Origin: Candidatus Bathyarchaeia archaeon
Lineage (GTDB): Archaea > Thermoproteota > Bathyarchaeia > Hecatellales > Hecatellaceae
DNA length: 64,000 nucleotides
Reading direction: 5' to 3'
NCBI GenBank assembly: GCA_038883335.1
Contig: JAVZMI010000004.1
Coordinates: 1-64,000, forward strand
Translations under genes and position numbers: made by a program
In this document: in pieces, positions 17,332 through 43,530 of the stretch
How the letters are laid out: each line of letters opens with the position of its first letter
Position numbering within the stretch: position 1 is the first letter of the stretch
Notes under the pieces: generated by a model
What the model saw: only the letters and a program-made list of their open reading frames with translations
Told to the model about the DNA's origin: nothing
The model's database searches: none

Positions 17332-18591
17332 TTAAGTGGTTCCCATCTCCCAACTTCGCATGTACTCAATTTGTTCAGCTGTGAGGTTATCTATCTCAAC
17401 CTTCTGGCTCTGGAGAGCTAGCTTCGCTACCCTCTCATCGATCTCCTCTGGAACTCTGAAGACCTTAGGTTCCATATCACGCCCGTGACGTAAAAGATAT
17501 TCAACCGAGAGAGCCTGATTCGCGAAGGACATCATCATAACTTCCGGCGGATGACCTTCAGCAGCCGCGAGATTGACGAGCCGACCCTCAGCCAATAGGT
17601 AGATGCGTCGCCCATCCTTCAACCGATACTCGTCAACATTTGGTCTAATCAACCTCTTTTGTTCAGCGAGCTCACTCAGTTCAGCGATGGATACCTCCAC
17701 ATTGAAGTGGCCGGCGTTGGCTATCACGGCACCACTCTTCATCTTTGACATATGTTCCCCGCGTATCACGTTTATATTACCAGTAGCAGTTACGAAGAAG
17801 TCGCCTATCTCGGATGCCATTAGAAGCGGCATCACCAAGAAGCCGTCCATCTTGGCTTCAAGAGCCTTCAAAGGGCTAACTTCAGTTACTATCACGTTGG
17901 CGCCCATCCCACGGGCTCTCATCGCTATACCACGGCCACACCAGCCGTAGCCGCAGACAACGAAGCTCTTTCCAGCTAAAAGGAGACCCGTAGCACGCAG
18001 TATACCATCGATGGTACTCTGACCTGTTCCGTAACGATTGTCAAAGAGGTATTTCGTGTAGGCGTCGTTCACCGCGATAATTGGGTAGCTCAGAACCCCG
18101 GATTTAGCCATAGCTCTAAGCCTCACGACGCCGGTGGTGGTCTCTTCCGTACCTCCGATCACTGCTCGCAACTGATCCTTCTTCTTGGTGTGTAGTGTCA
18201 TGACTAAGTCTGCACCATCATCGAGGGTAACTTCAGGTTGATGTGAAAGTACATTCTCTATGCACCTATAGTACTCCTCGCCTGTCTGACCTCTCCAAGC
18301 ATAGACATTAGTACCTTCGCTAGCTAATGCTGCCGCAACATCGTCTTGGGTCGAGAGAGGATTAGAGCCGCAGAGATAGACCTCCGCCCCTCCAGCTTTT
18401 AGGGTCCGAGTAAGGACTGCGGTCTCTTTAGTAACATGAAGACATGCGCCGACCTTAACACCTTTGAGAGGTTTACGTTTCTCAAAGTCGCTCCTGATAC
18501 TCATGAGTACCGGCATTCTGCTCTCAGCCCACTCGATGGATAAGCGGCCTCCCACGGCTAGGGAGATATCCTTGACCTCAAACTCTCGCAT
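17332..18591 (-). CDS. ahcY: Adenosylhomocysteinase
   Basis: NAD-dependent hydrolase that splits S-adenosylhomocysteine into adenosine and homocysteine (about 419 aa). It shows GVKVGACLHVTKETAVL, LDDGADLVMTLH, the DNRYGTGQSTIDGILRATG motif and the NAD-binding glycine loop VCGYGWCGRGIAMRARG. The C-terminal region has HPPEVMMMSFANQALS. A GTG at 18597 is possible, but GGAGG spaced seven bases from the ATG at 18591 favours the shorter form. It recycles the product of SAM-dependent methylation. Confidence 0.95.
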   Translation of the reverse strand: MREFEVKDISLAVGGRLSIEWAESRMPVLMSIRSDFEKRKPLKGVKVGACLHVTKETAVLTRTLKAGGAEVYLCGSNPLSTQDDVAAALASEGTNVYAWRGQTGEEYYRCIENVLSHQPEVTLDDGADLVMTLHTKKKDQLRAVIGGTEETTTGVVRLRAMAKSGVLSYPIIAVNDAYTKYLFDNRYGTGQSTIDGILRATGLLLAGKSFVVCGYGWCGRGIAMRARGMGANVIVTEVSPLKALEAKMDGFLVMPLLMASEIGDFFVTATGNINVIRGEHMSKMKSGAVIANAGHFNVEVSIAELSELAEQKRLIRPNVDEYRLKDGRRIYLLAEGRLVNLAAAEGHPPEVMMMSFANQALSVEYLLRHGRDMEPKVFRVPEEIDERVAKLALQSQKVEIDNLTAEQIEYMRSWEMGTT

Positions 18592-28615: not shown

Positions 28616-29542
28616 CTACATGCGACGGAGGGAGGCAAGAAGCTTCTTCGCCGACACTAACTCCTTCCCAATGCCCAGATTTTTCATAGAAAGACCTAAC
28701 GCCAAGCCTAGAAGCTGAGTGAAGTAGACTGAAGGTATGGAATAGTGTGTTCCAAATTTCTTGTTGATCTTGCCTTGATAGGATTCCAGGTTCATCTGGC
28801 ATAATGGGCAAGCTGTGGCTATGCATTGCGCACCATTCTCAACTGCGCATTTCAGGAGGTTTCTGACCAGCGGTAACCCTACATCTTCGTTAGTCATTAA
28901 TAATGTACCACCACAACATCTCGCCTTTAGAGGATAGTTAACGACTTCGGCGCCAGCCCATGATAGGACGCGATCCATTGTTGTCGGAGCCTCAGGGTCG
29001 TCAAAAGATCTCATCGGACGAGTTATCTGACAGCCATAATAAGGGGCAACCTTTAACCCTCCTAGCCCGCGAGAGCCAAACTCTTCATTATCGGAGGATA
29101 CAAACGACCGTATTCTCTCTTCGCCTACATCGTTTATTAATATATCCAATAGGTGGCGTATTTTCAACGAACCGAAATACGTGAGACCGATGCGGCCTAA
29201 GGTAAACTCAACCTGCTTTCTGAGCTTGGTATCCTCTGCTAAGAGTGTGTTTGTTTTGTTCAGGGTCGTAAAACAGGAGGGACAAATTACTAGTATATCC
29301 CTACTTGTCCTTTCAGCTCTCGCTAAGTTTCTAGCCACTAGGGCATGTGCACTTAGCTGATCTATCGAGATATACGCTGTAGCACCACAGCAGTTCCAGT
29401 CCTCCAACTCAACTAGACCTATCCCCAGTGCCTCTGCTACTAGCCTTGTTGAGGTATCGTAGCCTTTCTGCAAAAGCTGGACGGAGCAACCGGGATAATA
29501 GGTGTATTGAAGTAGCCGCTCCACTATATATCTGATCTCCAT
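28616..29542 (-). CDS. hdrB: Heterodisulfide reductase subunit B-like protein
   Basis: Soluble HdrB homologue (308 aa) with two complete cysteine-rich CCG domains. The first has YYPGCS, DWNCCGA and CPSC. The second has YYGCQ, KARCCGGTL and CPLC. In HdrB these bind two non-cubane [4Fe-4S] clusters that reduce a disulfide. The start lies within the end of the hdrC-like gene (19-bp overlap). It is the distal member of the minus-strand half of a divergent hydrogenase/Hdr locus. The natural disulfide substrate in a non-methanogen is unknown. Confidence 0.88.
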   Translation of the reverse strand: MEIRYIVERLLQYTYYPGCSVQLLQKGYDTSTRLVAEALGIGLVELEDWNCCGATAYISIDQLSAHALVARNLARAERTSRDILVICPSCFTTLNKTNTLLAEDTKLRKQVEFTLGRIGLTYFGSLKIRHLLDILINDVGEERIRSFVSSDNEEFGSRGLGGLKVAPYYGCQITRPMRSFDDPEAPTTMDRVLSWAGAEVVNYPLKARCCGGTLLMTNEDVGLPLVRNLLKCAVENGAQCIATACPLCQMNLESYQGKINKKFGTHYSIPSVYFTQLLGLALGLSMKNLGIGKELVSAKKLLASLRRM

Positions 29543-30462
29543 GATGCTTGTGACGTTATCTGTTTTATCTCGCGGAGTCCCTTGATCTTACATGGGAGAT
29601 GTAGCAACCGTCCCCTAACCAGAAGCTTTAACCCAAGACACGCCATTCCTAACAATCTACGCGGGCTCGTCGTAAGAAAGAATTTCATGGAGAGCTCTAT
29701 CTCAGAAACTCGACCTTTACGGTTCACGATATCCACGAACATCTTCGCAAGAGTCTTGGCGGGAGTACCTACACCATTCAAACCAAGCTTACCACTCAAC
29801 TGCCTAAGCCTGTACATAATCTCGGTGAATTTGATTCCCGCTGGGCAGCGAACCGCGCATAGATAACAAGAGGAGCACAGCCAGAAGGTGTTACTTGCCA
29901 AAACCTTATCTACAGCACCAGCTCTAATCAAGGCGACAAGTTTTCGCGGTGTATAATCCATGGCGAAGCCAGCTGGACATGAGCTACTGCAAGTTCCGCA
30001 TTGGACACATCGTCTCATCTTTTGGCCGCCAGGCATCTCGTAAAGTTCATCGACTAGGTCGCGATAGAGTGGATGACCGCAGTAATATTGAAACTCCTCA
30101 TATTTATCGAGCCCTCCAAGCCTAGCTCTCCAAGTAGCAACGTACTCTCTTCCAAATTCATCCTTAGCAGTTTTGAACAAGATACCTTCTAGTATGCGGA
30201 TGCTCTGTGTAATCTGGTAGAGAGTTTCCTCCCTTGCTGTCGATGGCTTCTGAGATTTATATTGTCTGATGAGAACTCTGGAGTTTCTAAGTATGGTCTT
30301 TACCTCTGGTTCCACATGCGCACCCATTCTTCTTAGATCAACAGCCATATCAGCCAAGAGAAGCCAAGTACGTTCGATAAGCTCCTCTTTTTCCGCGTGT
30401 ATGACAACAGATCCCTTTTTCACGCGGAGTAGCGCCCTTACCCCCACTTTACCTCTCCACAC
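29524..30462 (-). CDS. hdrC: HdrC-like iron-sulfur protein with extra N-terminal helical domain
   Basis: A 312-aa fusion. Residues about 22-136 are a helical domain (ERTWLLLADMAVDLRRMG, TILRNSRVLIRQYK) resembling DUF2096 of methanogens. Residues about 150-210 are the HdrC two-cluster domain, with CVQCGTCSSSCP (152-163) and CSSCYLCAVRCP (196-207). Ordinary HdrC is under 200 aa and lacks the first domain. The GTG start shares one base with the stop of the upstream gene, which encodes a second copy of the N-terminal domain. It should pass electrons between HdrA and HdrB. Confidence 0.85.
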   Translation of the reverse strand: MWRGKVGVRALLRVKKGSVVIHAEKEELIERTWLLLADMAVDLRRMGAHVEPEVKTILRNSRVLIRQYKSQKPSTAREETLYQITQSIRILEGILFKTAKDEFGREYVATWRARLGGLDKYEEFQYYCGHPLYRDLVDELYEMPGGQKMRRCVQCGTCSSSCPAGFAMDYTPRKLVALIRAGAVDKVLASNTFWLCSSCYLCAVRCPAGIKFTEIMYRLRQLSGKLGLNGVGTPAKTLAKMFVDIVNRKGRVSEIELSMKFFLTTSPRRLLGMACLGLKLLVRGRLLHLPCKIKGLREIKQITSQASWRSDI

Positions 30463-30851
30463 TACATCAGATCACAATAGTCCGGGTGCCCGTAATAGTA
30501 GAGAAAATCTCTATAATTGGCAATCTGTTCTATTTTTACTTTCCAGTCTGTAGCATACTTCCAACCTACTTCTCTTGCAGCTAGGTTTATCAGGCGGTCC
30601 AGCACATCATTCAAATTCCTTTGAAGCTGCGCTAAACTTTCATCTCTTAGGGTTGAGTGTAGCCCACAGAACTTAAGGCGCTTTATGAGAATTTTGCAAC
30701 CTCGAAGCGTCGATATGATGTCGGAATCCACTTTTACATAACGTCTCCGTAAGTCAACAACCATGTCTGCAAGTAATAACCAGGCGTGTTGGATGTATTT
30801 TTCAGGTATCGGAAAGAGCTCCTTAGGAAGGGATGCCGGTCGTTCAAGCAT
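30462..30851 (-). CDS. Stand-alone paralogue of the HdrC N-terminal domain (DUF2096-like)
   Basis: A 129-aa helical protein. HAWLLLADMVVDLRR matches RTWLLLADMAVDLRR of the next gene, and TLRGCKILIKRLK matches ILRNSRVLIRQYK. The end (YRDFLYYYGHPDYCDLM) aligns with YEEFQYYCGHPLYRDLV just before the iron-sulfur part of HdrC. It is therefore a duplicated N-terminal domain lacking the ferredoxin part. It overlaps the hdrC-like gene by one base (TAGTG). First gene of the minus-strand operon, divergent from the HdrA fusion. Function unknown; a partner or regulator of the Hdr complex is a guess. Confidence 0.75.
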   Translation of the reverse strand: MLERPASLPKELFPIPEKYIQHAWLLLADMVVDLRRRYVKVDSDIISTLRGCKILIKRLKFCGLHSTLRDESLAQLQRNLNDVLDRLINLAAREVGWKYATDWKVKIEQIANYRDFLYYYGHPDYCDLM

Positions 30852-30997
30852 ATTCGCCCACCAAGTAGAATTTCCAATTCTACGGGGATATAAAGATCAT
30901 GAAGATTATCATGAAGAAAATTTTGGCAAGAAAAATTGTCTATAAATCTTAAACTTACCGTATCGCTATTCTTAATTACCTAGTATAACAATTTTTA
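30852..30997. promoter_or_regulatory. Divergent promoter region of the Hdr/hydrogenase locus
   Basis: About 145 bp of AT-rich DNA separates the two divergent operons. A TATA-like ctataaatctt (about 30938-30948) could serve the plus strand. No clear perfect palindrome was seen. If the winged-helix domain of the plus-strand product binds DNA, this is the first place to look for its site. Confidence 0.45.
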
Positions 30998-33595
30998 TTG
31001 TCAAAAAATGAAAAACTCGAGCCCACTGATAGCCACACTTCAACGAGCTGCAACAAAAAGAGTGAACTTCTCTTGAGCATGTTCGCCGTACTTGCTCACC
31101 CTGTGAGAGAGAAGGTAATAACTGTACTGGGAGAAAGTGGCCCATTGAGCTATACCGAGCTTATGAATAGAGTGGGAATTAGGGAAACTGGAAAATTCAA
31201 TTATCACCTTGAAAAAATCGCAACCCTCCTATCCAAGGAGCGTGGGCTCTACAGCCTCAACACGATCGGCTTGAAGATATATGAATTAACCAAAATTAAA
31301 AACGACCTTCTGGCCGGAAAGGCTGTAAAAAAAGAGGATCTCATTCCCCCAGTTCGTATAAATCGTATTGGCATTGTCTTATGCACTTGCGGAGGTGAAA
31401 TAGACCGTGTGATAGATGTAGAGAGGCTAGTCAGAGGAGCGAAAGAGCTTGAAGGTGTAATTTCAGTCGAAGTCTTCACTAGATTATGCGCAGCGGAGAA
31501 TGTAGAGAAGCTGAGTGAATGGTGCAGAAAAAATTTTATTAATATACTCGTAATAGCAGCCTGCTCGCCCGAAATCCACAAGCAAAAATTTAATCAGATT
31601 CGTGAACTCACCAGCATACCTATAGAAGTAGTTAACATAAGAGAGCAGTGTGCCTGGGTTCATATAGATAATCAACCAAAAGCCTCAGAAAAAGCTGGAG
31701 TGCTGATCGAGGCTGCGGTGAAAGCCTCAGTATTCAAGCGAAGCTTCCCGACTAGGAGGGTAGACATCAGAAAGAGTGTGGCAGTTATCGGAGGGGGAGT
31801 AGCAGGCTTAACTGTAGCCCAGTTCGTGGCAAAGGCCGGCTGCGATGTTTACCTTGTAGAGAAGAAACCAAGCCTAGGGGGGAAAGTGGCATCGTGGAGC
31901 CGCATATACGGGACTGGGGATTGCGCTAGCTGCCTTGTATCTGAGTTTACATCATCCGTAGCCTTAGCGCGCAACGTCCGAGTTTTAACGAACAGCGAGG
32001 TGAAAAACATCTCCGGCCGAGCTGGAAATTTTGAGTTGACAATTTTACAGAAACCTAGGTTTGTCGATGCATCCAAGTGTTTGCCGCGTCGATACTCGTG
32101 CATCGATGCATGCCCTAGATATAAAATTGAAAAAGATGTTTTCGGCAGAGTAAAAAGGAAAGTTATCTATCAACCCCGCCCTGCAATATATCCACAAGCC
32201 CCCATGATCGATGACTCCGATATCGAAAGTTGTAGAAAATGCAGGAAGTGTGAGGACGCCTGCAACAAGCTTGGCGCCAAAGCCATAAATCTCGACGCTA
32301 AATCAGAAGAGATAAAAATTAACGTTGGGGCAGTCGTATTCGCAATAGGTGGAGAGATATATTTAGGGAAATATCTGGGAGAGCTAGGCTACAATCCCCG
32401 CAACGACATTATAACCAGTGTAGAGTTTGAAAAAATGTTGTCTATGGACGGCCCGACCAACGGTCGAATAGTCAAACTATCTGACGGAAAGCCTCCGGAA
32501 TGTGTAGCCATAATCCAATGTGTCAATGAAGGTATATGTTCAGGGTTTTGCTGCAGAGTCTCAAGGAAGTATCTTGAGTCTATTCGTGAGCAATTGGGAA
32601 ATCTAGAGGTCCACATATTTTATGATAGGAGAAAGATGCCTGTAGAGATACCCTACTATTTAGATTTAATGGAAAGTGCACATCTGGTCGAGGATCTGAA
32701 AGTAATCTCAAAAGATGGAAGGAAAGTAGTGGTAGCAGAGAATAGAGAATATGAAGCCGACCTGATTATACTAAATGTTGGGATGATACCCAATAGCTAT
32801 CTTAATGAGGTCCACAAAATTTTCGAGTTCAGCGTCGACAAGGATGGCTTTCTCAGACCAGAATCCCTTCCCACAGGAATCTTCGCTTGCGGGTCAATCA
32901 CTAGGCCGAAGGACTATGACTCTATACTCATGGAGAGCAGGTCGACGGCTTTAGAGGTTATAACACTCCTATCCAAAGATAAGCTGACGGTCGAAGAGGT
33001 GAAGATAGAGATAAACTATGACAGATGCGGCTTATGTGGACTCTGCCGCCCTGCATGCCCTTTCAAAGCCATAACCATAAGGGGAGGGGTTATGGAAGTT
33101 GACGACTTTAAGTGTAGGGGCTGTGGAGCTTGCGCCCCTATGTGCCCCACCGGGGCCATAGAATTTACTCTCAACAATAAGGAAGTCTTAACTAAGATTG
33201 AGACTTTAGCCAGCTCCAAAATCTCCCCAAAAGTACTTGCACTGTGTTGCGCTTACTGCGGCTACGCGGCCGCTGACGACGCGGGAGTTAAGAGGGTAAA
33301 CTATCCTCCAGGCGTTTTTATCCTACAGCTCCCTTGCACCGGTCGAGTAGACAGCGAATTCATACTCCATGCCTTATACTCGGGTTTTGATGGCGTCATG
33401 ATTGTCGGCTGCCGACCAAACTCTTGTAGATACATCGATGGGATAAAAAAGGCCGTCAGGAAAGTAGATGTTCTCAGAAAAATATTTGGCGCCGAACTGG
33501 AGAAACGTGTAAGAGTTGAGACACTTTCGGCTGTTGAAGGGATAAACTTTGCGATGAATGCAAGGGACTTTATTAGAGAGCTGAGTAAAAGTTGA
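30998..33595 (+). CDS. Winged-helix / HdrA / MvhD fusion protein
   Basis: An 865-aa protein with an unusual layout. Residues about 22-105 are an ArsR-like winged helix (FAVLAHPVREKVITVLGESG, YTELMNRVGI, FNYHLEKIATLL). Residues about 122-665 are HdrA, with LCTCGGE, FAD loop VAVIGGGVAGLTVAQ (261-275) and GDCASCLVSEF. Two ferredoxin motifs lie at 677-688 and 706-717. Residues about 746-865 are MvhD-like, with Cys 750, 751, 754, 780, 805 and 810. The internal cluster motif at 361-373 has only three cysteines, with changed spacing. A canonical one follows at 412-422. TTG start. The end overlaps the hydrogenase small-subunit start. Confidence 0.88.
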   Translation: MSKNEKLEPTDSHTSTSCNKKSELLLSMFAVLAHPVREKVITVLGESGPLSYTELMNRVGIRETGKFNYHLEKIATLLSKERGLYSLNTIGLKIYELTKIKNDLLAGKAVKKEDLIPPVRINRIGIVLCTCGGEIDRVIDVERLVRGAKELEGVISVEVFTRLCAAENVEKLSEWCRKNFINILVIAACSPEIHKQKFNQIRELTSIPIEVVNIREQCAWVHIDNQPKASEKAGVLIEAAVKASVFKRSFPTRRVDIRKSVAVIGGGVAGLTVAQFVAKAGCDVYLVEKKPSLGGKVASWSRIYGTGDCASCLVSEFTSSVALARNVRVLTNSEVKNISGRAGNFELTILQKPRFVDASKCLPRRYSCIDACPRYKIEKDVFGRVKRKVIYQPRPAIYPQAPMIDDSDIESCRKCRKCEDACNKLGAKAINLDAKSEEIKINVGAVVFAIGGEIYLGKYLGELGYNPRNDIITSVEFEKMLSMDGPTNGRIVKLSDGKPPECVAIIQCVNEGICSGFCCRVSRKYLESIREQLGNLEVHIFYDRRKMPVEIPYYLDLMESAHLVEDLKVISKDGRKVVVAENREYEADLIILNVGMIPNSYLNEVHKIFEFSVDKDGFLRPESLPTGIFACGSITRPKDYDSILMESRSTALEVITLLSKDKLTVEEVKIEINYDRCGLCGLCRPACPFKAITIRGGVMEVDDFKCRGCGACAPMCPTGAIEFTLNNKEVLTKIETLASSKISPKVLALCCAYCGYAAADDAGVKRVNYPPGVFILQLPCTGRVDSEFILHALYSGFDGVMIVGCRPNSCRYIDGIKKAVRKVDVLRKIFGAELEKRVRVETLSAVEGINFAMNARDFIRELSKS

Positions 33596-34347
33596 AGAGT
33601 TTAGAGAAACTGAAGGTATCATTCATCCAATTCAGCGGATGTAGCGGATGTGTAAACTCCATTCTATTCTCGCCGGTCTTCAGGGATTTCATGAGGACGG
33701 CTGACCTCTGTTTTTTCCCGTTTGTAACAGACTTTACATCTGTGGTTGAGCCTCAAGACGTGACGTTCGTAGAGGGGGCTGTCGTAGAGCCTGAAGAAAG
33801 AGCTCTCTTAACAGAGGTTAGGTCTAAAACAGAGAAGATTGTGGCTGTTGGGGCATGTGCCTGTCTGGGTGGAGTAACAAGTCTTCTGGGGAATATTACA
33901 GTTCATAGAATTTCGGACATCATTAAAGTGGACTACTCTCTGCCCGGCTGTCCACCATCGAAGGACATTGTCGGAAATTTTCTCTCCTCCCTACTTGTGA
34001 GGGAAGAGCCATCTATGCCACAAGCAAATCTTTGTGCTGAATGTCCATTTAAGCCTGCAAAACTGGATTACCCCGCGCCCATACAGAAATTGTTTGCAGA
34101 TAAGATGCCTGAGAGGTGCTTTTTAGAGGATAAAACATTATGCTTAGGCCCCGTGACACGGGGGGGCTGTGGAGCGCTCTGCATAGGTTTAGGCCTGCCA
34201 TGCGAGGGATGCAACGGGCCTTACAACGAAGACTCCCCCGGCGTCATTATAAATTTCTTCTCAGCACTCGACGCGCCCCTGAAGCAGGAGAGTAGGTTTA
34301 GAGACTTTTTCAAATTTCAGAAACGCTGGAAGGGTAGAAAGCTTTGA
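33592..34347 (+). CDS. mvhG: NiFe hydrogenase small subunit (MvhG-like)
   Basis: Iron-sulfur subunit of a group 3-type soluble hydrogenase (251 aa). Proximal-cluster ligands appear in SGCSGC, GACACLGG and LPGCPPS. More cysteines for additional clusters are in NLCAECPFKPA, RCFLEDKTLCLG and RGGCGALC...CEGCNGP. There is no signal peptide, so it is cytoplasmic. The TTG start overlaps the stop of the HdrA fusion, and its own end overlaps the large-subunit start by 4 bp. The three genes therefore form a tightly coupled unit. Confidence 0.9.
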   Translation: MKSLEKLKVSFIQFSGCSGCVNSILFSPVFRDFMRTADLCFFPFVTDFTSVVEPQDVTFVEGAVVEPEERALLTEVRSKTEKIVAVGACACLGGVTSLLGNITVHRISDIIKVDYSLPGCPPSKDIVGNFLSSLLVREEPSMPQANLCAECPFKPAKLDYPAPIQKLFADKMPERCFLEDKTLCLGPVTRGGCGALCIGLGLPCEGCNGPYNEDSPGVIINFFSALDAPLKQESRFRDFFKFQKRWKGRKL

Positions 34348-35669
34348 AAGTTAAGAGAACCTGGTTGATGACGAGGGTAGACGGTTACAGTGAAATAAGG
34401 GCTTACAGTGATGGAAATAGGCTACTGCGTGTAGAGTTTGCGGCGCCCAGATTTAGAGATTTTGCAAGGATCCTAGTAGGCAGGCGTATAGAAGAAATCC
34501 CTCGAATTGTAGCTCGCCTGTGTGGCGTATGCTCTCTTACTCATGAGGTAGCTGCGTGTAAAGCCCTAGAGAATGCTTTAGGGGTAGAGCCCCCTGAAAC
34601 AGCTAAAGCCGTTAGACTTCTTATGCTTATGGGCGAGATACTCCGAAGCCACGCGATTCACTTCCTAGTCATGAACCTCCCAGACCTGATGTCCCTAGTT
34701 AACCCCCTAAAGCGGATGGACTTGAAGGGTATATCAGAGTTTAGACCGAAGATCTTGAGAAATGGGTTGGAGTTTATTCGTTGCGGTGAGAGGATACTTG
34801 AAGTGACTGGCGGACGGGCTGTTCAGCCCGTCCGCCCAGTTGTGGGTGGTGTCACGAAACCATTAACTAGGAGGGAGTGCGATGTGCTTCTGAGTGAGCT
34901 AAAGAGTTCTGTTAACACCGCGGAGTGGGCGTCAGAGCTAGCGAACAGCCTTGTGGCCGAAGTCGAGGAGAAGGAGACTTTCAATTTTAAAGAGAAATTT
35001 CACTATGTGTCTTCTTTAGATTTAGAGGGAGGGCAATTATTCTACGGTGGAGACATTATGGCGTTGGATGAGGAGTGCAAATTTACTGAGAGGATACTGC
35101 CCAGTGATTTTTATAACAGAGCGGTAGAGGTTGGTTGGGTAGGAAGCGAAACTCCAAACCTACCTGCACCAGGGAAGAGGGGCAACTACCTCTTAATGAC
35201 AGGGCCTGAGGCGAGAGCTCTACTTGCTACGAGAGTAAAGTCCACGATCTTGCTTGAGAAGAAAGCAGAGATATCTAACACGTTACTTTTAACTTCAATC
35301 CGTTTGAGGGAAGCTATCTTCTGCCTCTTGAAGAGCATAGAGCTGTTAGGTCGTGACACCATAGCAGGTTCTGAGGTCCGAACTCCTTGGGAGCCTTCAG
35401 AAGGTTTAGGCACCAGTGTCGTTGAAGCCCCCAGGGGAACCCTGCTCCACCGGTACAAGATTAACGGAGAGGGTCTAATAGATTCCGCTGAGATTATAAC
35501 TCCAACCAGTATGAAGACGCCGGGGATAAACTTGGTTCTATGCCATATACTCTCTGCTTGCTCTAAGAAGGCTTTATCTGAGAGTGAAACTTTGGAGAGA
35601 ATTAAGATGGCCGTTAGGATGTTCGACCCATGCATCTCCTGTCTAACCCACGCATCAAGAATAGGGTAG
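34344..35669 (+). CDS. mvhA: NiFe hydrogenase large subunit (MvhA-like)
   Basis: Catalytic subunit (441 aa) holding the NiFe(CN)2CO site. The N-terminal ligand motif is RLCGVCSLTH and the C-terminal one DPCISCLTH, giving all four Ni-binding cysteines. The sequence resembles group 3c (F420-non-reducing) enzymes that feed HdrABC. The protein ends only five residues after the last conserved His (ASRIG). There is thus little or no C-terminal peptide for a maturation protease to remove, unlike most homologues. It starts with TTG and overlaps the small-subunit gene by 4 bp. Confidence 0.9.
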   Translation: MKVKRTWLMTRVDGYSEIRAYSDGNRLLRVEFAAPRFRDFARILVGRRIEEIPRIVARLCGVCSLTHEVAACKALENALGVEPPETAKAVRLLMLMGEILRSHAIHFLVMNLPDLMSLVNPLKRMDLKGISEFRPKILRNGLEFIRCGERILEVTGGRAVQPVRPVVGGVTKPLTRRECDVLLSELKSSVNTAEWASELANSLVAEVEEKETFNFKEKFHYVSSLDLEGGQLFYGGDIMALDEECKFTERILPSDFYNRAVEVGWVGSETPNLPAPGKRGNYLLMTGPEARALLATRVKSTILLEKKAEISNTLLLTSIRLREAIFCLLKSIELLGRDTIAGSEVRTPWEPSEGLGTSVVEAPRGTLLHRYKINGEGLIDSAEIITPTSMKTPGINLVLCHILSACSKKALSESETLERIKMAVRMFDPCISCLTHASRIG

Positions 35670-35978: not shown

Positions 35979-36395
35979 CTACCCAGTTTTCCCCCAGTTG
36001 AGGGGGCCCAACTCTCTGATAGTTTCGGTCATTTCTTTGACTACCCGCGCGAACTTTTCTGCCTCGGAGGCTGAGATCCACTCCAACCGCACCCTCGCCT
36101 CATCGATCCCCACCTGGCCTAGCAACTTTTTAAGTAGTAGGTACCGCCTGAAGGCGTTATAGTTCCCTTTGTTGTAGTGGCAGTCCCCAGGGTGGCAGCC
36201 GGCGATGAGAACGCCGTCAGCCCCTTGGGTTAGGGCTTTAATTATGAAGGTTGGATCTATCCTGCCGGTGCAGTTTACTCTAATAGGGTATACGTTAGGT
36301 GGGTAAGTCATCCTGCTTGTGCCCGCTAGATCGGCCCCAGCATAGGAGCACCATCGGCATAGAAAGCCTACTATCCTCGGTTCAAACCTCTCCAA
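35979..36395 (-). CDS. mvhD: F420-non-reducing hydrogenase iron-sulfur subunit D (MvhD)
   Basis: A 138-aa [2Fe-2S] protein that links hydrogenase to HdrA. It has FLCRWCSYAGADLAG, VNCTGRIDPTFIIKAL, GVLIAGCHPGDCHY and the ISASEAEKFA tail of the family. It is homologous to the C-terminal 120 residues of the winged-helix HdrA fusion. TTG start 15 bp after the hdrA stop. It is the last gene of the six-gene operon with hdrD, etfB, etfA, the membrane oxidoreductase and hdrA. Confidence 0.92.
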   Translation of the reverse strand: MERFEPRIVGFLCRWCSYAGADLAGTSRMTYPPNVYPIRVNCTGRIDPTFIIKALTQGADGVLIAGCHPGDCHYNKGNYNAFRRYLLLKKLLGQVGIDEARVRLEWISASEAEKFARVVKEMTETIRELGPLNWGKTG

Positions 36396-36410
36396 TCAAC
36401 ACACCTCCCA

Positions 36411-38375
36411 CTAAATTGCTAAAATTCCCTCCATTTCGGCGTAGATCTGCCCGTCTGTGAAGCCTTGCTGCTTTATGGCGCCTGAGGGGCAGGCGGCTAC
36501 ACAGACCCCACACGCCTTGCACAAAGCCTCCTGCACAACTGCTACATTTTTATCCTCATCGAACTTTATAGCGTTAAATGGGCAGGCTCTGATGCAGACG
36601 AAACAGGCGGAGCAACGTTTCTCGTCTATCACGGCAATTTCAGGTTCAGTCGTCACCTTGCCGCGGTCGATAAGTGAAAGAACTTCCGCTGCAGCGGCGC
36701 CCCCTTGAGCCACAGAGTCAGGTATATCTTTCGGCCCTTGGCAGACACCTGCTATGTATATGCCGTCATTGGTAGTTGAGACTGGGGCTAGTTTTGGGTG
36801 CCTCTCTAGGAAGAAGCCGTCTTTGCTTCGGCTGAGGAGAAAAGTCTTCGCAACTTTGTTGCTGTCTCTTCTAGGTTCTAGAGCCACACTGAGGACGACC
36901 ATGTCCACTGGAACTCGCAACACCGACCCTAGTAGGGTATCCTCGCATCTTACGATGAGCTTCCCCTCCTCTTCGGGTGTTTCAGCGAAATTGGTGACCT
37001 CCGCACCTTTTCCTCTTATAAAGATCACGTCCTCATTCAAAACTCTCTTATAGAATTCTTCGTAGCCTTTACCGAAGGCTCTTAGGTCTATGTAAAACTC
37101 GTACACCTTAGCGTTGGGCAACTTTTCCCTGACCAGATGCGCAAACTTCATCGACTGCATACAACATATTCTAGAGCAGTATTCGTGGTAATTCTCGTCC
37201 CGACTTCCTATACAGTGGAGGATGGCTAAACTCTTAGGTGTATCTCCGCTTTTCAGTAATATCTTGCCGCCAGTGGGCCCTGACGCGTTGCACATTCTCT
37301 CAAATTCTAGGGAGGTCACCACATTGTCGTAACGCCTGTACCCGTATTGAGCTGCAACAGACGGATCGAAGACATCGAAGCCGGTAGACACGATGACGGC
37401 GCCAACATCAACCTCAACGAACTCATCCTTATCATCAAACTTTACGGCGTCTGCTGGACAGACTTTCTGGCAGACCTTGCATACTCCTTTTGTGAAGAAG
37501 AGACAGTTTTCTGTATCGATTACAGGAATGTTGGGTACAGCTTGAGGGAAAGGTGTATAGATAGCCTTCCGCATCCCTAAACCGCAGTCAAACTCACTCG
37601 AAACCTTGACGGGACATTTCTCCTGGCATAAACCGCAACTTGTACACTTTTCAGGGTCGACATATCGCGCTTTTTTCTTTATTTTAACCTTGAAGTTACC
37701 TGCAAATCCGGAAAACTCTTCCACTTCACTGTAGGTTAGCAACTCTATGTTGGGGTGGACTCCAACGGAAGACATTTTTGGAGTTAGGATACAAGCAGCA
37801 CAGTCGAGTGTGGGAAATGTCTTATCGAATTGCGCCATATGACCGCCTATACTTGGCTCCTTCTCCACCAGATAGACTCTCCTTCCAGAATCGGCGATTC
37901 GAAGCGCTGCCTCGATCCCAGTTATGCCTCCCCCAACAACCAAGGCTGCTGGGTTCACTCCGAAAGTTTTGATTTGTAAAGGTTCATGATTGGAGACACG
38001 TCTAACCGCGGCCGCTATGAGCCTCGCAGCCTTCTGTGTTGCTAATTTACTGTCACCCGTGACCCATGAGTCCTGCTCCCTAACGTTTGCCATCTGAAAC
38101 AGGTAGGGATTGAGTCCAGCCTCATTCAAAACCCGCCTAAATGTCTGTTCATGCATCTGTGGGGAGCATGCTGCTACTACGATGCGGTTCAGCCCAAGTT
38201 CTTTTATGTCCTTCTTAATCATTTCTTGGCCTGGATCGGAGCACATGTACTTGTATTCTCTAGCCACGACTACACCTTCCAGCTTCGACGCGAAGGATGC
38301 TAACTCCTGTATATCCAGTTTTCCAGCTATATTCGTCCCACAATGGCAGATATAGACACCAATTCTATTCTCCAT
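36411..38375 (-). CDS. hdrA: Heterodisulfide reductase subunit A (HdrA)
   Basis: Flavoprotein of 654 aa that can bifurcate electrons in Hdr complexes. It begins IGVYICHCGTNIAGKLDI and has the FAD loop VVGGGITGIEAALRIADSG and TLDCAACILTPKMSSV. The inserted ferredoxin has canonical CTSCGLCQEKCP, and a second cluster region has CKVCQKVCP. IGSRDENYHEYCSRICC is present, and two C-terminal ferredoxin motifs (CSACFVCIRACP, CKACGVCVAACP) follow. It lacks the winged helix of its paralogue in this window. ATG start preceded by AAGGTGAG. Confidence 0.95.
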   Translation of the reverse strand: MENRIGVYICHCGTNIAGKLDIQELASFASKLEGVVVAREYKYMCSDPGQEMIKKDIKELGLNRIVVAACSPQMHEQTFRRVLNEAGLNPYLFQMANVREQDSWVTGDSKLATQKAARLIAAAVRRVSNHEPLQIKTFGVNPAALVVGGGITGIEAALRIADSGRRVYLVEKEPSIGGHMAQFDKTFPTLDCAACILTPKMSSVGVHPNIELLTYSEVEEFSGFAGNFKVKIKKKARYVDPEKCTSCGLCQEKCPVKVSSEFDCGLGMRKAIYTPFPQAVPNIPVIDTENCLFFTKGVCKVCQKVCPADAVKFDDKDEFVEVDVGAVIVSTGFDVFDPSVAAQYGYRRYDNVVTSLEFERMCNASGPTGGKILLKSGDTPKSLAILHCIGSRDENYHEYCSRICCMQSMKFAHLVREKLPNAKVYEFYIDLRAFGKGYEEFYKRVLNEDVIFIRGKGAEVTNFAETPEEEGKLIVRCEDTLLGSVLRVPVDMVVLSVALEPRRDSNKVAKTFLLSRSKDGFFLERHPKLAPVSTTNDGIYIAGVCQGPKDIPDSVAQGGAAAAEVLSLIDRGKVTTEPEIAVIDEKRCSACFVCIRACPFNAIKFDEDKNVAVVQEALCKACGVCVAACPSGAIKQQGFTDGQIYAEMEGILAI

Positions 38376-38465
38376 TTTTACTCACCTTTTTTTGTTTTCA
38401 CGATCTCTCCTCATGGAGATTTCCTTTACACTCTAACATCTCATATTTCACCTCATACGCGTAAA

Positions 38466-40532
38466 TCACATAGCCCTTGCAACTACCTCCGCTAAGTCTA
38501 GGAGTTTGACGGACTCCTCTTTCCCGAGGGATTTCAGCCCATCATCGAACATGGTGAGACAGTAGGGGCAGGCTGTCACTATCGTGTTGACGTTCAACTC
38601 CAACGCCTGCTTCGCTCGGTTGACGTTTATCTTCTCACCTAAAGTTTCCTCCATCCACACCCTCCCACCTCCACCTCCACAGCAGAAAGAGTTGTACCGA
38701 CATCTCTCCATATCCTTCAGTCTTATGCCTGGAACTCTCTGAAGGACCCCTCTTGGCGCGTCGTAGACTTTATTGTGTCTGCCGAGATAGCATGGATCAT
38801 GATATGTAACAACCTCGTCGACGCTCTTGGTCAACTTCACCTTCCAATCTTTTAGAAGCTCCAAGACGAATTCGGAGTGGTGTACCACCTCATATTCTCC
38901 GCCCAGTTGCGGGTACTCGTTTTTGAGCGTGTTGAAGCAGTGCGGGCATATCGTCACAATCTTCTTGATTTTGTGCTCATTAAAGATTTGGATGTTTTCT
39001 CGGGCCATCGTCTGGAACAGGTACTCGTTACCCAACCTTCTAGCTGGGTCGCCGCAACACCTTTCACCGTTGCCTAGGATGACAAAGTTTACTCCTGCTA
39101 CCGTTAAAATCTTGGCCAACGATTCAGTTATCCTTTTGTTCCGACTGTCATAGGATCCTGAACAGCCTACGAAGAGCAGCACCCGGTTGTCTAATTCTCT
39201 CACTAAGGCGTCTTCCTCGCCAACGCGTTTAACGCTAAGGGACTCAGCCCACTTCTCCCTCTCGTTCTGAGGTAACCCCCAAGGATTTCCGTTGAACTCT
39301 ATATCACGGAAGAGCCTTGCCGTATCGGGTGAGACTGAGCCTTCTGTGAGTACGAGGTACCTTCTCATCTCGATTATCTTGAGGAACTGCTCGATGAAGA
39401 CAGGGCATTGCTCAACACACGCCGCGCAGGTTGTGCAAGACCAGATGACATCTTGAGAAATCTGACCGTCTAAGTCCCCGATTATAGGAGATACTTGGGT
39501 CGCTTGTTTTTTAAGCAAAGTCTTTCCGTTGGTTAGTAGGTTGCGTTTTAGATCCAAGATTACCTTCTTTGGGTTGAGTGGTTTCTTGGTTAGGTGGGCA
39601 GGGCAGTTGTCCTGGCATCTGCCGCACTCTGTGCAGGCGAAGAGGTCTAAGAGGTGCTTCCAGGTGAGATGTTGAATCTCGCCTGCGCCGAGAGTATCTT
39701 CCTTCTCGAGGTCAATGTAGCTTAGTGCCCCTCTGGGGTTCAGGGATCTGAAGAAGATGTTAATGGGAGCGGTAATTACGTGAAGGAGCCTAGTGTAGGG
39801 CGCTACGGCGATTAACGCTAGGGAGAGCCCCATATGAATTAGCCAGAGAGAGAGGTGTAGAGACTTTAGGAAACCCTCACCTAGACCCGCAACTGTAAAA
39901 ACTCCAGCCAAGGCATTACCAACAAAGGACCAACCCTGCCAAGGGACTGGGGAAGCCGCTATCCTCAACCCTTCCACCATGAAACCGGTTAAGGCTATTG
40001 CCAGCAGAGATCCGAGGACAACCTTGTCCTGAGCTAGAACTCCGAGGCTTTCAGGCTTCAGTATATACCGGCGATACAAAGCCATAATTATGCCTAGGAT
40101 AAGGAATGCCCCAAAGAAGTCCAAGACAGCCTCAAAAAGTAGGTAGAGCCCCCCTACAAGGTATCGCGCAGAGAGGAGAGGAATTAGGAGGTCTGTCTCA
40201 AGGAAGACCAAACCTGTACCTAGGGCTAGGAATATGATGCCCCAGAAGATGCCCGCATGCATAATGCCGGCATAGGGTTTACGTGAGACCCTCAGCTGAG
40301 CTACAGCATAAGCTAATAGACCCTTCAGTCTGTCGCCCACCCTATCTATTCTGAGTCCCCCCCTAGCCGTGGTCTTAAAGACCAATTTATAACGTCCATA
40401 AATGCCCCAAACAAATGTAACCAAAGCTACAGCTAGCGAGATGTAGGGTATGAGGTGTAGTGGCTCTGGAATATTCCAGAAGTGTTCCCTAATGGGAAAA
40501 CCAAGCTCAACCTCGACCATTAACTGCACCAT
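38466..40532 (-). CDS. Membrane HdrDE-like fusion, probable Etf:quinone oxidoreductase
   Basis: A 688-aa protein with an N-terminal membrane domain of about six helices (NarI/cytochrome b-like, His residues in MHAGIFWGIIF and SLHLSLWLIHMG). Two [4Fe-4S] motifs follow (CTECGRCQDNCP and CTTCAACVEQCP). Two CCG domains come last, with VGCSGS, ERCCGD and CPHC, then HDPCYLG, FCCGGGGG and CPYC. This matches the Etf-linked membrane oxidoreductases (EMO type) that pass electrons from EtfAB to a quinone. It lies 39 bp after etfA. Heme binding and quinone use are family-based inferences. Confidence 0.85.
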   Translation of the reverse strand: MVQLMVEVELGFPIREHFWNIPEPLHLIPYISLAVALVTFVWGIYGRYKLVFKTTARGGLRIDRVGDRLKGLLAYAVAQLRVSRKPYAGIMHAGIFWGIIFLALGTGLVFLETDLLIPLLSARYLVGGLYLLFEAVLDFFGAFLILGIIMALYRRYILKPESLGVLAQDKVVLGSLLAIALTGFMVEGLRIAASPVPWQGWSFVGNALAGVFTVAGLGEGFLKSLHLSLWLIHMGLSLALIAVAPYTRLLHVITAPINIFFRSLNPRGALSYIDLEKEDTLGAGEIQHLTWKHLLDLFACTECGRCQDNCPAHLTKKPLNPKKVILDLKRNLLTNGKTLLKKQATQVSPIIGDLDGQISQDVIWSCTTCAACVEQCPVFIEQFLKIIEMRRYLVLTEGSVSPDTARLFRDIEFNGNPWGLPQNEREKWAESLSVKRVGEEDALVRELDNRVLLFVGCSGSYDSRNKRITESLAKILTVAGVNFVILGNGERCCGDPARRLGNEYLFQTMARENIQIFNEHKIKKIVTICPHCFNTLKNEYPQLGGEYEVVHHSEFVLELLKDWKVKLTKSVDEVVTYHDPCYLGRHNKVYDAPRGVLQRVPGIRLKDMERCRYNSFCCGGGGGRVWMEETLGEKINVNRAKQALELNVNTIVTACPYCLTMFDDGLKSLGKEESVKLLDLAEVVARAM

Positions 40533-40571
40533 GTTAGAGTTGAATTGTTTAGGCCTACCCCTCTGAGATGA

Positions 40572-41546
40572 TCATTTCTTCTTCAAAGCTTGAATTAACT
40601 GTGGAACCACCTTGAATAGGTCATCCACTATTCCATAGTGAGCATAGTTGAAGATTGGAGCGTTTGGATCTTTGTTAATCGCTACTATCATATTGCTTCC
40701 TTTCATCCCAGTCACATGTTGCGTCGCACCACTAATGCCCACGGCAACGTAAAGCTTAGGTTTAACGATCTTTCCAGATACCCCAACCTGTCTCCCTTTA
40801 GGCAGCCAGCCTTTATCAACCACAGGACGGGACGCCGCAAGGGCACCACCCAAAGCGTTGGCAAGCCCCTCAACTAACGGTATGTTCTCCTGCTTCCCAA
40901 TACCTCGACCTACAGAGACAAGTACCTCGGATTTAGTGATGTCAACCCCCTCTTCGACGGGTTTAATATAGTCTAAGAATTTGCAGCGGAAATCTTCATC
41001 TTTCAACTTGGACTCGAGAGGTATTATTTCGGCTTTCTTGGCAGCACCCTCGCCGATTGGCTCCAGTAAACCCGACCGGAAGGTAACTACGTATTGGCTG
41101 TCTTTAGGGAAGGCAACCTCAACCTCAACCTTGCCGCCATACATCTGCCTGTAAGCCTTAAAGGTTTGATCTTCGAACTTCACGTTTATGCAGTCTGTCG
41201 CTAAAGGTAAGTTGAGCTGTGATGCTAGAGCTGGAGCTAGGTCTATACCCATTGAAGTGTGGCCCATCATAGTTAGAGCAGGCTTTCTTTCTTTCACAAT
41301 TTCTGAGAGCATCTTCAGGTAGCCTTCAGAGTGATAGTCTCCAAGTCTCTTGTCCTCTACAACTAAAACCTCATCAGCTCCACGACATGCCAGCTGATCA
41401 GCCAACCCTTTCACCTCGTGCCCTAAGATGGCTGTCGAAACTTTCAGCTGGGTTTTCTCGCGGAGCTCTACGGTCTTCCTCAGCAGTTCATATGTTACGT
41501 CTCTGATCTTCCCCCCTCTATGCTCAGCAACAACTAAGACGGACAT
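40572..41546 (-). CDS. etfA: Electron transfer flavoprotein subunit alpha
   Basis: EtfA (324 aa), which holds the FAD that exchanges electrons with partner enzymes. The N-terminal domain has the EtfA fold (VLVVAEHRGGKIRDVTYELL). The C-terminal FAD domain has SVGRGIGKQENIPLVEGLA, GGALAASRPVVDKGWLP, GVSGKIVKPKLYVAVGISGA and NYAHYGIVDDLFKVVP. It starts 4 bp after etfB. Together with the membrane HdrDE-like protein it forms an electron path between a soluble donor and the membrane. Confidence 0.93.
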   Translation of the reverse strand: MSVLVVAEHRGGKIRDVTYELLRKTVELREKTQLKVSTAILGHEVKGLADQLACRGADEVLVVEDKRLGDYHSEGYLKMLSEIVKERKPALTMMGHTSMGIDLAPALASQLNLPLATDCINVKFEDQTFKAYRQMYGGKVEVEVAFPKDSQYVVTFRSGLLEPIGEGAAKKAEIIPLESKLKDEDFRCKFLDYIKPVEEGVDITKSEVLVSVGRGIGKQENIPLVEGLANALGGALAASRPVVDKGWLPKGRQVGVSGKIVKPKLYVAVGISGATQHVTGMKGSNMIVAINKDPNAPIFNYAHYGIVDDLFKVVPQLIQALKKK

Positions 41547-41550
41547 TCAT

Positions 41551-42351
41551 TCACCCCCCGAAACCTTTCTCCCTGAGTATAGAAACCAAACCTGCTGCCT
41601 CTTCTTCTGGGCTTCCGCGGATGATTACAGTCTTCCTCTCAACTACTGGGATTGCCATCTTTGCCACCGATGCCCTCTTCCAGCCCATCACCTCAGCCGG
41701 ATCTAAACCAATATCTTTCAGGCTTAGAGTTTTGATCTCCTTCTTCATCGCCGCTCTAATCTTAGCGAATGGGGCGTACCTTGGCACGTTTATTCCTGTC
41801 TGGATGGTTAATAGAGCAGGCAGAGGCAACTCTACAACTTGTTTAAACCCCTCCTCCAGCTCTCTCTCCACTTTAGCTGCCTTGCCGCCGGCTAGAATTT
41901 CCAGTTTCGTCACCAGAGTCACGTAGGGTAACCCAAGTAGAGTAGCTACGGTGGGCCCTATCTGGGCGCATCCGTCATCGGAAGCCTGAACTCCAGTAAA
42001 GACCAAGTCAAAGCTGAGGCCTTTTATGACTTTCGATAAAATCTTAGATTTTGCGAATGGGTCCAAGTTATCAACTATTTCATCAACGAGCTGGATTGCG
42101 TTGTCAGCCCCCTTTGCGTAACATTCTCTTAGGGTCTGTTCTATATTCTTGCTTTGCTTGGGAGTTGTGAGGGTGAGTACGGTCACTTCTCCGCCAAGTT
42201 TCTCTTTCAGCAGTACTGCCTCCTCCAGTGCATACTCGTCCCACTCGTTTATGGCGAATTTCAAAGTCTCTTTTGCGATGTCGGTGCCACTTACCTTAAG
42301 GTCAACCCCTTCCACCAGAGGGACAGATTTGACGCAGACGACTATATTCAA
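41551..42351 (-). CDS. etfB: Electron transfer flavoprotein subunit beta
   Basis: EtfB (266 aa). Family features include MNIVVCVKSVP, FAINEWDEYALEEAVLLKEK, VFTGVQASDDGCAQIGPTVA and the C-terminal recognition region. In ordinary Etf this subunit binds AMP. In bifurcating Etf it binds a second FAD. Which applies here cannot be settled by eye. It starts about 12 bp after the hdrD-like gene ends, in the same operon. Confidence 0.93.
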   Translation of the reverse strand: MNIVVCVKSVPLVEGVDLKVSGTDIAKETLKFAINEWDEYALEEAVLLKEKLGGEVTVLTLTTPKQSKNIEQTLRECYAKGADNAIQLVDEIVDNLDPFAKSKILSKVIKGLSFDLVFTGVQASDDGCAQIGPTVATLLGLPYVTLVTKLEILAGGKAAKVERELEEGFKQVVELPLPALLTIQTGINVPRYAPFAKIRAAMKKEIKTLSLKDIGLDPAEVMGWKRASVAKMAIPVVERKTVIIRGSPEEEAAGLVSILREKGFGG

Positions 42352-42363
42352 GATTTCACCTAC

Positions 42364-43530
42364 CTACAGGGCTTCTCTAACTATCTCGGCTATATCTCTC
42401 ACCTGAATTTCATCTTCTTTCCCTATAGACTTGACGCCATCTTCAAGTTGAATAATGCAGAAGGGGCAAGCCACTGCAATAATCTCAGCACCAACCTTTG
42501 CCGCCTCCTTAGCCCGACTTACGCAGGGTCTCGCCTCAGCTTTAGCCGACTCCTCTTCCATCCACATTCTCCCCCCGCCACCGCCGCAACAGAAGCTGTA
42601 TTCTTTGATTCTCCTCATCTCAACCAGCTTAACTCCGGGTATGGCTTCCAGTATCTTCCGTGGCTCTTCGTATATGTTATTATGCCTTCCCAAGAAACAA
42701 GAGTCGTGATAGGTGATCTTTTTCTCTATTCGCTTGGAAAAGTTTAGTCTCCCCTCATCTAAGAGTTTGGAAATAAGTTGGGTGTGGTGTTGAACTTGGA
42801 AGTAGGAGGGGTAATCTTTCTTAAAGGTGTTATATGAGTGGGGACACTGGGTTAGGATGTTTTTTATTTTGTATTTCTTAAATGTGGCCATATTATCCTC
42901 CATTAACATCTCGAAGAGACCTTTCTCGCCAATTCTGTTGATTGAATCACCGCAACATTTTTCCTCGTTTCCCAGTATAGCAAAGTCCACCCCTGCATTG
43001 CTTAGAACCCTCACGAGAGACTTGGCAACCTCCCTATTTCTTGCATCATAGGAGGGAGTGCAGCCAACGAAGAATAGCAGCTCCGCGGAGTCGCCTTTAG
43101 AGAAGTCTTTTATCTCCAGCCCCTCAGCCCACTCTGATCTTTTAGAGTCTAAACCACCCCAAGGGTTACCATACCTTTGAGTGCTCATCAAAGCGTCTTG
43201 CAAAGTTTTCTGTATGACACCCTCCTCAACCTTGCGGCTTCGGATCTGTGTAGCAAGGGTCACGAGAGAGATCTTGCTAGGGCAGTTGATTTTGCAATTA
43301 TAACAGGAGGTGCACAGCCAAGGCGAGTTGCTGTCAAGAACCTTATCCAGCAACCCAGCCCTGAGATAGGCGATAATGCCTCGGAAGGTGTGATCCATGG
43401 AAATTCCGTTAGGGCAGAGTATGCCGCATGTGCCGCATTGGATGCATTTCTTTATCATGTCACCTTCTGGGGTTGCGTATAGGGAGTTCAGGAATTCTTC
43501 TAACGGGCTGGAGGAAAGTATGCTGGACAA
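42364..43530 (-). CDS. HdrD-like soluble iron-sulfur protein
   Basis: A 388-aa protein with an N-terminal ferredoxin domain (CIQCGTCGILCP and CTSCYNCKINCP) and two CCG domains (VGCTPS, EKCCGD; HDSCFLG, FCCGGGGG, CPFC). In the first CCG domain the usual final CPxC is CPHS, so one ligand is changed. It is strikingly similar to the soluble half of the membrane oxidoreductase three genes later. It resembles partners of lactate/glycolate oxidases and of Etf. First gene of the operon. TTG start with AAGGTGA six bases upstream. Confidence 0.85.
   Translation of the reverse strand: MSSILSSSPLEEFLNSLYATPEGDMIKKCIQCGTCGILCPNGISMDHTFRGIIAYLRAGLLDKVLDSNSPWLCTSCYNCKINCPSKISLVTLATQIRSRKVEEGVIQKTLQDALMSTQRYGNPWGGLDSKRSEWAEGLEIKDFSKGDSAELLFFVGCTPSYDARNREVAKSLVRVLSNAGVDFAILGNEEKCCGDSINRIGEKGLFEMLMEDNMATFKKYKIKNILTQCPHSYNTFKKDYPSYFQVQHHTQLISKLLDEGRLNFSKRIEKKITYHDSCFLGRHNNIYEEPRKILEAIPGVKLVEMRRIKEYSFCCGGGGGRMWMEEESAKAEARPCVSRAKEAAKVGAEIIAVACPFCIIQLEDGVKSIGKEDEIQVRDIAEIVREAL

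Follow-up and report, generated by a model that had tools for sequence, protein, structure and literature searches.

A winged-helix domain fused to an HdrA-MvhD flavoprotein in Bathyarchaeia: a candidate enzyme-regulator at a divergent Hdr-Mvh-type hydrogenase locus

The stretch of DNA analysed here (hereafter the window) comprises 64,000 nt of a Candidatus Bathyarchaeia archaeon (contig JAVZMI010000004.1, positions 1–64,000; assembly GCA_038883335.1). On its forward strand, a reading frame that is open from end to end (30998–33595), uninterrupted as originally predicted, places a winged helix ahead of a full HdrA, with an MvhD domain at its end. Within the gene (31073–33595 from the best-supported start, a TTG; the longest frame begins at TTG 30998), the DUF7347/ArsR-like winged-helix domain (31079–31288, residues 28–97) is followed by a poorly conserved linker (31289–31360, residues 98–121), by a complete HdrA part with N-terminal Fe-S, FAD/thioredoxin-reductase, inserted and C-terminal ferredoxin domains (31361–33217), and by an MvhD/FlpD [2Fe-2S] domain (33224–33592, residues 743–865). 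Directly downstream, and on the same strand, lie two overlapping genes: an mvhG-like hydrogenase small subunit (33592–34347), whose first 4 nt are also the last of the fused gene, and an mvhA-like [NiFe] large subunit (34344–35669). The promoter region is shared with divergent genes on the reverse strand, which encode a DUF2096_N four-helix protein recognized by profile match (30462–30851), a DUF2096_N domain fused to an HdrC-like protein (29524–30462) and an HdrB-like protein with both CCG cysteine motifs (28616–29542). The HypD maturase is also encoded within the window. As a side observation on the divergent genes (29524–30851, reverse strand), the DUF2096_N of the HdrC-like protein is 38% identical to the adjoining stand-alone DUF2096_N protein, and in a search of 61 related genomes every other match listed covered the HdrC part only.

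The TTG at 30998 lacks a ribosome-binding site; a GAGTGA is found 7 nt upstream of TTG 31073, and the N-termini of three homologues (described below) coincide with the position equivalent to TTG 31073 or ATG 31079, their own start codons being ATG in G305, TTG in B14_G2 and ATG in G221. The true start is thus probably TTG 31073 (the likeliest) or ATG 31079, and not 30998. In-frame start codons of the long frame occur at codons 1, 26, 28, 36, 50, 56, 59 and 92, and then only at 138; considering that HdrA begins near residue 122 and that codons 93 to 137 hold no start codon, every available start either keeps winged-helix residues or truncates HdrA. A start downstream of the winged helix (near residue 118), which the original prediction had contemplated, is hence ruled out. 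This start-codon gap already refutes, at the sequence level, the reading of the gene as a plain metabolic HdrA whose N-terminal extension is due to chance or to mis-annotation (a wrong start or an assembly error), which we consider exceedingly improbable: the doubtful TTG 30998 would agree with it, but G221 has a GGTGG directly 5' of the winged-helix ATG, and in B14_G2 just 43 bp separate the fused gene from its divergent neighbour. An assembly artefact is likewise ruled out, as four independent assemblies agree, one of them a whole chromosome. The wHTH-HdrA-MvhD fusion is confirmed as real.

Among 257 genomes of the class, the fusion was found in the window genome and in G221 (CP070649.1, Bathyarchaeota bin87, an assembled chromosome) only; extending the search to 398 genomes of the phylum brought in G305 (CALKCG010000074.1), and B14_G2 came from scanning GTDB contigs. 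The architecture is therefore not peculiar to one genome, as the original prediction had allowed that it might be: the same domain order recurs in three further genomes, and the gene order (wHTH-HdrA-MvhD, then mvhG, then mvhA) is identical in all four. Six other genomes in the order of G305 yielded no further fusion. Three candidates were set aside, namely G049 (which a long open frame had flagged, but whose listed HdrA reading frame has no winged helix), G235 (also flagged, the match of its HdrA to the query starting no earlier than residue 105) and the marsarchaeotal L071 (whose winged-helix reading frame stands alone). In trees with non-fused relatives, the fused loci form one clade for HdrA (100/100), MvhA (100/99) and MvhG (93/81), each time on long branches for which the tree program flags a long-branch warning, and the winged helices of the four group weakly (75/74). 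The simplest history would be one fusion event that then spread vertically or, sporadically, by horizontal transfer.

The N-terminal 121 residues of the fused protein match DUF7347 with E = 1.6e-14, and the Pfam profile covers residues 28–96 at 54.3 bits (cut-off 27.6). An AlphaFold2 model of the domain (13-sequence alignment, mean pLDDT 89.6) adopts a helix-helix-helix-beta-wing-helix fold, for which Foldseek retrieved MarR/ArsR-type repressors from the PDB as top matches (probability 1.00, best E 3.8e-3), including NadR, BigR, SmtB, YodB and HxlR (each with probability 1.00); modest E-values are to be expected of a short and common fold. The sequence-profile search of the PDB gave a single match, the ArsR-like 1y0u of Archaeoglobus. 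Profile and fold alike match the domain to the DUF7347/ArsR-like winged-helix regulators, so that the originally proposed ArsR-like fold holds, while its limits move from residues 22–105 to 28–97. In the full-length AlphaFold model (pLDDT 51, poor outside the winged helix) the domain was not placeable on HdrA. Between fused proteins, the winged helix (35–57% identity, mean 46%) is conserved to the same degree as the catalytic domains (37–47% for the HdrA parts and 46% for MvhD), and the adjoining linker is not (mean 19%). The recognition-helix stretch, [EN]TG[KN][FL]NYHL, is that of stand-alone DUF7347 regulators. The domain holds no cysteine, which means that any signal would have to travel through a change of shape. 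The same genome encodes a second fusion of this kind, in which NrdD, the anaerobic ribonucleotide reductase, has a DUF7347 winged helix at its N-terminus, ahead of the ATP-cone (L115, G000:C6 near 17493–17654); such use of the same family makes a role away from DNA possible.

The promoter region contains a candidate operator in the form of an inverted repeat, whose left arm (TTTTGGCAAGAAAAATTGT, 30921–30939) sits just before a TATA-like box (30941–30947) and whose right arm (ACAATTTTTATTGTCAAAA, 30988–31006), itself a near-dyad (TAACAAT-TTTT-ATTGTCA), lies on the other side of it. The 19-nt arms are complementary at 17 of 19 positions, a value matched in none of 2000 dinucleotide shuffles, and the promoter tile was the single positive one among the 519 window tiles scanned. 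In two of the four fused loci the repeat is not conserved. The motif ACAA-N6-TTGT is present both at the window promoter and upstream of the fused gene in G221; as an operator common to the genomes it was rejected, since 22% of shuffles have some 4-bp dyad in common, which puts the sharing at chance level, and two genomes lack the dyad. Scans for sigma-70 promoters and terminators gave nothing above chance, an archaeal promoter being expected here. Considering that the divergent DUF2096_N, HdrC and HdrB genes have the same promoter region, one regulator could govern the complete HdrABC-MvhAGD set.

Winged-helix domains often serve as structural or protein-interaction modules, and the domain described here might accordingly be employed off DNA, for example to hold the HdrA dimer together or to dock a partner where part of the usual Hdr-Mvh interface would otherwise be. 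Such a function would be in line with its near-neutral charge (11 K+R, 9 D+E), with the failure to find an operator motif common to all four genomes and with the NrdD fusion, but it sits poorly with the retained recognition-helix signature of stand-alone regulators and with the significant dyad repeat at the promoter; on balance we hold this reading, the main rival, to be rather unlikely.

The catalytic body of the protein agrees with the complete FAD/iron-sulfur HdrA and C-terminal MvhD originally described. The HdrA2 model NF040770 matches residues 123–863 (E = 1e-163, although the score of 546 bits falls short of the 1100 set as cut-off for this exception model) and the FlpD/MvhD profile PF02662 matches residues 746–863 (E = 3.1e-32); the HdrA part aligns to 5odc_A. 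All domains of HdrA type Ia are present (N-terminal Fe-S, FAD/TrxR, inserted and C-terminal ferredoxin domains, C-terminal MvhD), the FAD motif is kept, and in all four fused proteins so are the cysteines compared in the Fe-S domains (N-terminal, inserted and C-terminal), C364R of the window protein excepted. This change affects the first inserted [4Fe-4S] motif (32078–32119, HdrA residues 361–374), which also has a one-residue insertion, and it is limited to the window genome, the other three fused proteins being without it. In the alignment, E478 and K524 occupy the positions of E356 and K409 in the Methanothermococcus HdrA, their equivalents being invariant in the eight HdrA compared; passages of a published HdrA survey (PMC12054007) propose this pair as markers of bifurcating HdrA. 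From the start of HdrA to MvhD, the domains follow one another as in HdrA type Ia (the HdrA-MvhD fusion, for example HdrA2 of Methanosarcina; PMC12054007, PMC5296606), with which the protein also shares the FAD motif, the cysteines of the clusters and the equivalents of E356/K409; the fused protein differs in its added N-terminal winged helix and in that, in all four genomes, the LDKTFPT and ILTPKM segments of canonical HdrA are replaced and the GSRD loop is shortened, which marks it as a distinct HdrA branch.

The hydrogenase subunits are modified as well. MvhG is shortened, with internal and C-terminal segments missing and the cluster cysteines retained. The Ni-Fe ligands (CxxC...DPCxxC) are kept in all four large subunits, and the EGH histidine is lost in all four, the TR-EGH motif reading TRVDGY in the window. 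Only 8 residues follow DPCxxC in the window MvhA (3–9 in the four), compared with typically 27–28 (10–35) in canonical relatives, some of the non-fused relatives compared having tails of just 10–17 residues. The best sequence matches of the large subunit are MvhA/VhuA (best PDB match, 5odc MvhA); it thus possesses the ligands of Mvh-type [NiFe] hydrogenases (group 3c) but neither their TR-EGH motif nor their maturation tail, and it has the missing tail of the H2-sensing groups 2b/2d but not their sequence. The missing tail is typical of these H2-sensing hydrogenases, and also of groups 4c, 4e and 4g (PMC7294309).

From these sequence features we infer DNA binding, the operator, the sign of control and redox coupling, and we picture the fused protein as the flavoprotein at the centre of a soluble, divergent [NiFe] hydrogenase complex of the Hdr-Mvh type; a putative DNA-binding head would be covalently attached to it. 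Electrons would pass from H2 via MvhA, MvhG and the MvhD domain to the FAD and clusters of HdrA, the redox or assembly state of which would alter how the pair of winged helices in the dimer is arranged and, with it, how they grip sites on either side of the promoter that the divergent operons have in common (the hdrCB side and the fused-hdrA-mvhGA side). In this way the enzyme would regulate its own genes in response to hydrogen or redox state, as PutA does in the case of proline. The locus suggests that the cell may read its hydrogen or redox state directly at the promoter, and we see an even chance that the protein is a PutA-like autoregulating trigger enzyme, or a derived H2/redox sensor, acting on its own divergent hdr-mvh locus. 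The stronger proposal, in which the hydrogenase-flavoprotein complex would itself be the transcription factor (H2 oxidation at the [NiFe] site setting the HdrA flavin redox state and, through it, winged-helix DNA binding), is advanced more tentatively.

The enzyme-regulator is favoured by the four-genome architecture and single clades, by a winged helix that is conserved next to a variable linker, bears the recognition-helix signature and is modelled with high confidence as repressor-like, by the promoter repeat, and by the kept FAD motif, cluster cysteines and E356/K409 equivalents together with the tail-less large subunit and the HypD gene. Against it count the non-conservation of the repeat in two of four genomes, the chance-level core common with G221, the winged helix devoid of a redox residue, the occurrence of DUF7347 on NrdD, the existence of tail-less hydrogenases that are non-sensing (PMC7294309) and the short tails of some non-fused relatives. 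The regulatory part of the original proposal gains from the signature, the domain-over-linker conservation and the repeat, and its pure regulator is not supported in that form: with the catalytic residues of HdrA kept and hdrB and hdrC adjoining, a bifunctional enzyme-regulator is no less likely.

As a sub-variant of the enzyme-regulator, the complex could be mainly a sensor, a relative of H2-sensing hydrogenases with the winged helix as output and little metabolic flux. The long stem branches of a fast-evolving hydrogenase, the four large subunits that have lost both the maturation tail and the EGH histidine, the shortened small subunit, the second, ordinary [NiFe] hydrogenase elsewhere in the genome, and the lack of hdrBC beside the fused locus in the 14.6-kb B14_G2 and 8.3-kb G305 contigs would all suit a sensor; yet every bifurcation residue and nearly every cluster residue is retained, and hdrB and hdrC are adjacent in the window and near the fused-locus genes in G221. 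We hold this variant, too, to be rather unlikely.

Among the closest known systems is trifunctional proline utilization A (PutA), likewise a flavoenzyme with an N-terminal DNA-binding domain; it acts as repressor of the regulon to which it belongs, and the redox state of its flavin throws the switch (PMC5293562). Its DNA-binding fold, however, is RHH, its enzyme is another one without homology, and DNA binding of the fused protein is predicted. The HdrABC-MvhAGD complex of methanogens (5odc) has the same subunit set as the fused locus, whereas here MvhA is without tail and EGH histidine, MvhG is shortened, MvhD is fused, a winged helix is added and the operons are divergent. The H2-sensing regulatory hydrogenases (groups 2b and 2d, HoxBC/HupUV) share a [NiFe] site without C-terminal maturation tail (PMC7294309), but the fused-locus hydrogenase is Mvh/Vhu by sequence, its signal would reach DNA within the same complex, and no histidine kinase partner was seen beside the fused locus. 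Regulator-type domains also occur on the metabolic enzymes of the FmdE-regulator fusion in Methanosaeta (in passages of PMC11237513) and of wHTH-NrdD in this genome, but unlinked to HdrA or hydrogenase. The HdrA survey comprises 1,152 sequences in 28 classes, and its passages on domain classes mention no HTH or helix domain (PMC12054007); the archaeal fusion survey reports HdrA-HdrA, HdrA-MvhD and FmdE-regulator fusions, the last a precedent for this type of protein, and a winged helix on HdrA does not figure in its passages on HdrA (PMC11237513). Within the open-licence papers covered, where absence is not proof, no fusion of HdrA with a winged helix or HTH (Bathyarchaeota) was found, in keeping with the original remark that a transcription-factor domain on HdrA is unusual.

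In bacteria, hydrogen is sensed by regulatory hydrogenases that act through kinases. Should the enzyme-regulator hold true, a direct hydrogenase-to-DNA route would represent a new design: a single complex would carry the hydrogen signal to the promoter with no kinase cascade in between (a simple sensor for archaea dependent on H2 balance), and an electron-bifurcating flavoenzyme would serve as trigger enzyme. The availability of four loci makes the idea testable.

Two neighbouring regions are recorded as well. Upstream of the fused gene in G305 (L065:1817–3157), a hydrogenase-small-subunit-like part is joined to a ferredoxin and further domains in a protein that adjoins NuoF- and NuoG-like genes. 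In the window, a separate electron-transfer locus on the reverse strand (35979–43530), convergent with the fused operon, encodes a second, canonical-type HdrA (36411–38375) with its MvhD (35979–36395), a large membrane HdrD-like protein (38466–40532) and electron-transfer flavoprotein subunits (40572–42351).
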